Shown: piece after piece, positions 54,156 to 55,626 of the stretch | Layout of the letters: the number at the start of each line of letters is the position of its first letter | Position numbering within the stretch: the first letter of the stretch is position 1 | Source: Alphaproteobacteria bacterium | GTDB taxonomy: Bacteria; Pseudomonadota; Alphaproteobacteria; UBA6615 | DNA: 64,000 nucleotides | Assembly (NCBI GenBank): GCA_039980135.1 | Contig: JBDXCV010000003.1 | Coordinates: forward strand, 1 to 64,000 | Direction of reading: 5' to 3' | The notes under the pieces: model-generated | Told to the model about the DNA's origin: nothing | What the model saw: the letters and a program-made list of their open reading frames with translations, nothing else | Databases searched by the model: none | Program-made: the position numbers and the translations under genes

Positions 54156-54255
54156 AATTCACCTCCCGTCTCACCGCGCATTCAGCGCCGCGTGCGACTC
54201 TCTGATACAATCCATCCGAGCACATATTGTCCCGCATCGCTTGGAGCGCAACCGC

Positions 54256-54879
54256 ATGTCCGATCCCGTCACCCTCGAGGTCTTTGCCGACTACGTTTGA
54301 CCCTGGTGTTACCTCAGCACCGTGCGTGTTGAAAAACTGAAACAGGCCTACGACGTCGATATCCAGACCGTGCACTTCCCGCTGCACCCCGACACGCCGC
54401 TCGACGGCCAGTCGCTCGAACAGCTGTTCGCGGGCCGCGATGTCGATCTCGATGCCATGTATGAAGGCATGAAAGCGCGGATGGACGAGGAAGGCCTGCC
54501 CTACGGCAAGCGCACCCACACCTACAACAGCCGTCTGGCCCAGGAACTCGGCAAATGGGCCGACACCCAGCCCGGCGGCGATGCCATCCACATGAAGCTC
54601 TACGAGGCCTATTTCGTGGACGCCAAGAACATCGGCGACGTCGATCTGCTGGTGGAGATCGCCGAGGGGGTAGGCTTGGACGGGGCCGCCGCGCGCGAGG
54701 TGCTAGAGAAACGCACCTTCGAGGCGGCGATCGACGCCGACTGGGAGAAGTCCCGCCAGTATGGTGTGACCGGCGTGCCGACCTATGTGGCCGACGCCAA
54801 GGGCGTCGTCGGGGCCCAGCCCTATGAGGTGCTGGAACAGCTGATGGATGCCGCGGGGGCCAAGAAGAAAGGCGGCTGA
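54256..54879 (+). CDS. DsbA/FrnE-family thiol oxidoreductase, predicted selenoprotein (Sec15)
   Basis: Reading from ATG 54256 (GGAG 9 bp upstream), codons 1-14 give MSDPVTLEVFADYV. Codon 15 is TGA (54298-54300), followed by PWCYLSTVRVEKLKQAY and an open frame to TGA 54877, for 207 residues counting Sec. Family members read D-[FY]-V-C-P-W-C-Y there, so UGA takes the place of the first Cys, giving U-P-W-C. The rest is typical: VDIQTVHFPLHPDTPLDG, LPYGKRTHTYNSRLAQEL, GVTGVPTYVAD (cis-Pro loop). A hairpin fitting a bacterial SECIS lies just after UGA. If not read as Sec, translation would restart at GTG 54322 without the active site. A sequencing or point error is the only simple alternative. Confidence 0.88.
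54302..54346 (+). promoter_or_regulatory. Bacterial SECIS-like hairpin
   Basis: The upper stem TCAGCAC / GTGTTGA (54314-54320 with 54326-54332, one G-U) closes the 5-nt loop CGTGC, with G at loop position 2. Below it GTT/AAC (54308-54310 with 54335-54337) and CCTG/CAGG (54302-54305 with 54343-54346) can pair. The loop begins 21 nt after UGA, within the 16-37 nt range of known bacterial SECIS elements. SelB would bind here. Confidence 0.7.
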
Positions 54880-54894: not shown

Positions 54895-55548
54895 CTACTT
54901 CATCTCCTCGGGAAAGTCCGGCTGGACCTGGGGCCGCGCGTCGAAGAAGGCCGGGTTCTCCAGGCATGTCTTGAAGATTCGTACGCAGTTCGGATAGGCG
55001 TCGAGCGGGATCTTGAACAACGTCGCCGCACCCACCTGGGGCACCAGGCAGAGATCGGCCATGGTCACCTGATCGCCCTCGCAATAGGTGCCTGACGTGC
55101 CGCCTTCCGCGAGATGTGTCTCGATGGCCGCGAGGCCCTTTGTCGTCCAGTTGCTGATCCACGCGCCGAGCTCTTCCTCGCTATGGCCCCAATCCTGAGT
55201 GATGTATTTGCGGATACGCGGCACCACCAGCGGATGAATATCCGCCACCAGGATCATGCAGAGCGACCGCACCCGCGCCCGCGCCATCGGGTCCTTCGGC
55301 AACAGGGCCGGCTCGGGGTAGGTCTCGTCGAGATACTCGAGGATCGCCATGGACTGGGTCAGCGTGATCCCGTCATCGGTCACCAGCGCCGGAACCACCC
55401 CCTGCGGGTTGATCTTGAGATAGTCCGGATCGAACTGCTCGCCCTTGAGCAAATCGGTCGAGACGACCTCGAAGGGCTGGCCCTTGAGGTTGAGCGCGAT
55501 GCGGACGCGGAAGGCGGCAAGCGAGCGCCAGTAGCTGAACAGTTTCAT
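54895..55548 (-). CDS. maiA: Maleylacetoacetate isomerase-like zeta-class GST
   Basis: This 217-residue protein begins MKLFSYWRSLAAFRVRIALN, the zeta-class active-site region. INPQGVVPALVTDDGITLTQSMAILEYL binds glutathione, and the helical C-terminal domain has GDQVTMADLCLVPQV. The likely reaction is isomerisation of maleylacetoacetate in tyrosine catabolism. ATG 55548 has GGGGGAG upstream. Tyrosine-pathway genes are not adjacent, so substrate is by homology. Confidence 0.88.
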   Translation of the reverse strand: MKLFSYWRSLAAFRVRIALNLKGQPFEVVSTDLLKGEQFDPDYLKINPQGVVPALVTDDGITLTQSMAILEYLDETYPEPALLPKDPMARARVRSLCMILVADIHPLVVPRIRKYITQDWGHSEEELGAWISNWTTKGLAAIETHLAEGGTSGTYCEGDQVTMADLCLVPQVGAATLFKIPLDAYPNCVRIFKTCLENPAFFDARPQVQPDFPEEMK

Positions 55549-55626
55549 GATATCTCCCCCGAATTCGGTGTTTGTTTCTTGGCCGCAGTGGGCCCCCTGG
55601 ATGGATCGCCTGTCAACCCGCAAGCC

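Follow-up and report, generated by a model that had tools for sequence, protein, structure and literature searches.

The window analysed here (one stretch of alphaproteobacterial DNA, 64,000 nucleotides in length) carries a gene for a FrnE-related protein of the DsbA family that, judged from its sequence and its relatives, almost certainly encodes a selenoprotein with selenocysteine (Sec) at an in-frame UGA codon (Table 1). The UGA is codon 15 and is followed directly by PWCY, and the frame then stays open to a terminal TGA. A preliminary description of the same DNA had proposed a DsbA/FrnE-type protein with an in-frame TGA at the first Cys of CPWC, and this was borne out by a Pfam match, by alignment with FrnE and by comparison with relatives, as detailed below.

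Table 1. Positions of the selenoprotein gene and associated features. Coordinates are those of the window unless a locus or contig is named.
Feature	Position	Strand	Details
FrnE-related DsbA-family selenoprotein gene	54256..54879	+	ATG at 54256; stop TGA at 54877-54879; 207 residues (translated with TGA as U)
Likely ribosome binding site, GGAG	54243..54246	+	9 nt 5' of the ATG; read in the sequence
UGA codon, predicted Sec15, first residue of U-P-W-C	54298..54300	+	26 genes have TGA, the present one among them; 71 Cys-type relatives have TGT or TGC
Resolving Cys18, TGT codon	54307..54309	+	Cys in 14/14 aligned sequences
Bacterial SECIS-like hairpin	54314..54332	+	7-bp stem, 54314-54320 with 54326-54332; loop CGUGC, 54321-54325; 20 nt after the UGA
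Second UGA gene, peroxiredoxin-like (AhpC/TSA), RGHWUPYC	L134:10246-10740 (G000:C3:836245-836739)	-	Between selC and selB, in the sel cluster

Residues 6-197 of the read-through product matched Pfam DSBA (E 1.3e-34), and residues 2-194 matched Deinococcus FrnE (E 6.4e-24) with codon 15 placed on the first Cys of CPWC. None of the NCBIfam models scored above its cut-off against the selenoprotein. Homology to relatives in the genomes of the taxonomic family begins at codon 1; the family-like codons 1-14 and the ribosome binding site described at the outset were both recovered, the former as residues conserved in homologues and the latter as the GGAG listed in Table 1. U15 and C18 are the only Sec or Cys residues in the protein. 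In the AlphaFold model (pLDDT 93.6) residue 15 lies between a strand (residues 5-11) and a helix (residues 16-31), the usual place of CxxC in the thioredoxin fold. The best match among solved structures, found with Foldseek, was FrnE (5co3; TM 0.88, 31% identity). A signal peptide was looked for in the selenoprotein and none was seen, and the product is most likely cytoplasmic. A glutathione S-transferase gene (54895-55560, minus strand) is the convergent neighbour of the gene.

The TGA at codon 15 was kept in 19 of the 24 genomes of the taxonomic family, one of the copies (in G007) being broken into frames; an order-level search returned the identical 24 genomes. The TGA form was also found in three further genomes of the class, from other families, and in four metagenome-assembled genomes (MAGs) labelled as Gammaproteobacteria (L057), Pseudomonadales (L130), Nitrosovibrio (L062) and Rokuibacteriota (L065), that is, as beta- and gammaproteobacteria and Rokubacteria, although MAG labels can err. 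The 26 UGA genes occupy 27 rows of the alignment, as L038 and L045 are two parts of a single gene. The remaining relatives, of which the 71 compared at codon 15 share at least 38% identity, have TGT or TGC there and so encode Cys, never Trp. The column therefore holds either Cys or UGA, which answers the check on relatives that had been suggested beforehand. By sequence, the closest records are MAGs from marine or Red Sea sources with Rhodospirillaceae or Alphaproteobacteria in their titles, and from these titles the host is probably a marine alphaproteobacterium.

Nucleotide changes after the TGA, relative to homologues of 67-96% identity, gather at third codon positions (6, 4 and 42 changes at the first, second and third positions against L022). 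The few changes before the TGA show the same tendency (0, 0 and 2 against L022). This bias on both sides of the codon is predicted by translation through the UGA. On a tree built with the trait column left out, three exchanges between U and C are needed, counted without direction since the tree treats gain and loss alike, and at least two are forced by well-supported branches. One UGA gene and one Cys-type gene (L062_U and L056_C) are sisters on this tree (support 100/92).

Bacterial SECIS elements are described as having a loop of 3-9 nt, a stem of 4-16 bp, a G in the first two loop positions, a spacing of 16-37 nt and a minimum free energy of -7.5 kcal/mol or lower (PMC13188914). The hairpin downstream of the UGA has a loop of 5 nt with G at position 2, a stem of 7 bp and a spacing of 20 nt, and its minimum free energy was -7.8 kcal/mol for the core and -8.6 kcal/mol for 44 nt. 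When folded alone, the 44-nt stretch of the window was no better than shuffled sequences in total (z -0.71), an alternative pairing being in competition, and among folds of this single sequence only the 26-nt core stood out (z -2.8). A hairpin scan of the window was unspecific, as 33 read-through frames passed; a hairpin alone is thus no evidence, whereas its restriction to TGA forms is. All seven pairs were present in 25 of the 27 UGA rows and six pairs in the other two; among the 71 Cys relatives the complete hairpin was never found, and six pairs were found in two. Under synonymous reshuffling, with the amino acids and the codon use of each gene fixed, a complete hairpin had a mean probability of 0.0012. 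The stem paired in 98.6% of cells, against 24-43% for slid versions, and RNAalifold recovered exactly the same hairpin. The loop reads CGGGC in some of the UGA genes. Codons within the hairpin are frozen (CTC in 27/27 rows, CGT in 27/27 and ACC in 26/27, with GTG likewise nearly fixed), and GC3 falls to 0.45 here, the mean for the rest of the gene being 0.75. Pair 21-31 is compensatory, C-G occurring with codons AGC...GTT and U-A with AGT...ATT; it is the only stem pair that covaries, and the C-G form, present in nine rows, may reflect few events.

A search for the sel genes had been put forward as a critical check, and selA, selB, selC and selD were all present, at 827-844 kb on the same contig as the window, in a genome that is 98.8% complete. 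The tRNA-Sec gene (selC; C3:829190-829281) scored 71.2 bits against a cut-off of 47, in agreement with ARAGORN, and SelA (583 bits), SelB (467) and SelD (284) all scored above curated cut-offs. Across the family, selB was above cut-off in 18 of the 19 genomes with the UGA gene and in 2 of the 5 without it (Fisher p 0.018, a rough figure as the genomes are related), and tRNA-Sec was above cut-off in 16 of those 19. In one genome with the UGA gene (G020, 87% complete) selB and tRNA-Sec were searched for and neither was found. SelD (L134:901-3123, minus strand; TIGR03169 and TIGR00476) is a fusion protein whose N-terminal part is a pyridine nucleotide-disulfide oxidoreductase domain. A nitrile hydratase alpha-like protein, encoded at L134:3422-4045 on the minus strand, also passed the cut-off of the model for NHLP leader peptides, a family of RiPP precursors.

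Three other explanations of the TGA were weighed. A pseudogene or a sequencing error, in which a Cys codon was mutated or misread, would take a single substitution from TGC or TGT, and most of the genomes are drafts. This explanation is refuted by the identical codon in all 26 genes, which derive from separate assemblies and span several classes; purifying selection moreover persists beyond the TGA and the complete hairpin is kept in the TGA forms only, which leaves it extremely improbable. Given the same codon across genomes, the TGA is taken to be neither chance nor sequencing error. An ordinary stop followed by re-initiation at GTG 54322, from which a mechanical open reading frame does exist, would yield a 185-residue protein without the UxxC site. 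Such a product would lack the active site together with the first strand, although homologues in which CPWC is unbroken share the conserved codons 1-14 and PWCY, and the GTG sits within the hairpin itself; re-initiation is accordingly very improbable.

Read-through by itself does not name the inserted residue, and UGA might stand for Trp or some other residue through a change of code or a suppressor tRNA. The chance of this is slight in the extreme, since relatives have Cys and never Trp at codon 15, the gene itself ends in TGA, and tRNA-Sec and all the sel genes are present. Insertion of Sec at codon 15 is the explanation followed below.

Further selenoproteins were sought in the window and in the sel region. 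A scan of the latter for UxxC-type patterns gave one convincing case, the peroxiredoxin-like gene of Table 1. Counting the present genome, 16 members of the family have this gene with the TGA in frame. It has the motif WUPYC and is read as the second selenoprotein gene of the genome. The sole formate dehydrogenase alpha subunit above cut-off (L135; G000:C9:38925-40979) has no in-frame stop, so that the enzyme appears to be of the Cys type in a genome with Sec decoding. In 2006 fdhA was the only selenoprotein gene in the Alphaproteobacteria then known (PMC1794560), and a Sec-decoding alphaproteobacterium with an apparently Cys-type formate dehydrogenase departs from that rule.

Selenoproteins of this kind have been known since 2005, and the gene is a new member. 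In 2005 a survey of the Sargasso Sea entered nine UxxC selenoproteins as 'DsbA-like' under COG2761 (PMC1088965), to which Deinococcus FrnE is also assigned (PMC1978522). The GOS survey of 2008 listed 63 'DsbA 1' selenoprotein sequences, commoner in marine samples (PMC2398784), and a 2026 review retains a 'DsbA-like protein form 1' (PMC13188914). By description, the present protein shares with them the PF01323 fold with UxxC at the catalytic site, which defines the family, as well as a bacterial SECIS after the UGA and widespread Cys homologues. FrnE is not named in PMC1088965, PMC2398784 or PMC13188914. The preliminary remark was that no well-characterised U-P-W-C FrnE is known in this class; the 'DsbA-like, UxxC, COG2761' entry was nevertheless already catalogued (PMC1088965), so novelty is lower than had been estimated. 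For the DsbA-like selenoproteins, the present analysis adds a hairpin with frozen codons, a tree of Sec and Cys forms and a sister-group relation to FrnE.

FrnE of Deinococcus radiodurans (DrFrnE; DR_0659; PDB 5cnw, 5co3) is described as a cytoplasmic disulfide reductase/isomerase, and regeneration of its active site was proposed to depend on a C-terminal CXXXXC, a motif that many FrnE proteins have and others lack (PMC8945050). The selenoprotein has the same DsbA-like fold, and its UPWC aligns with the CPWC of DrFrnE; it differs in having Sec for the first Cys and in lacking the C-terminal CXXXXC. Cys-type FrnE paralogues, of about 30% identity to the selenoprotein, are also encoded in this genome and in its relatives. 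One of these, from the same genus (L048), is closer to DrFrnE (E 2.1e-34, against 6.4e-24 for the selenoprotein), and the selenoprotein clade is split from the canonical paralogues on the tree by a long, fully supported branch. As canonical Cys-type FrnE occurs alongside it, the selenoprotein is placed by these comparisons in a FrnE-related sister subfamily; the earlier naming as FrnE therefore stood as to relationship and not in the strict sense. SCO1869, a putative DsbA oxidoreductase (PDB 3gl5), is a relative in fold and sequence, with the difference that Sec is the first active-site residue here, and is distant in sequence (E 8.7e-19).

By analogy with DrFrnE, a role as thiol-disulfide reductase or isomerase is somewhat favoured. 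SelA, SelB, SelC (tRNA-Sec) and SelD would decode the UGA as Sec, directed by the hairpin. The selenolate of U15 would attack a substrate disulfide, the direction of the reaction and the substrates being presumed, and C18 would resolve the intermediate with formation of a U15-C18 selenenylsulfide. As the C-terminal CXXXXC is absent, an external reductant should regenerate the U15-C18 site.

Standard annotation would begin such a gene past the UGA, and the active site would be lost. Roughly even weight is given to a wider reading, in which these genes form a distinct FrnE-related subfamily. Sec would be the norm for it in one alphaproteobacterial family, where the purpose of Sec decoding would be to serve thiol-redox selenoproteins (FrnE-related and peroxiredoxin-like); at least two exchanges between Sec and Cys would have occurred in the subfamily, and the hairpin would have passed almost intact into other classes. 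The Cys-type formate dehydrogenase that belongs to this reading was seen in the present genome only. Through pairs such as L062_U and L056_C, the clade offers natural Sec/Cys pairs among close homologues in which the contribution of Sec to a disulfide reductase may be assessed.
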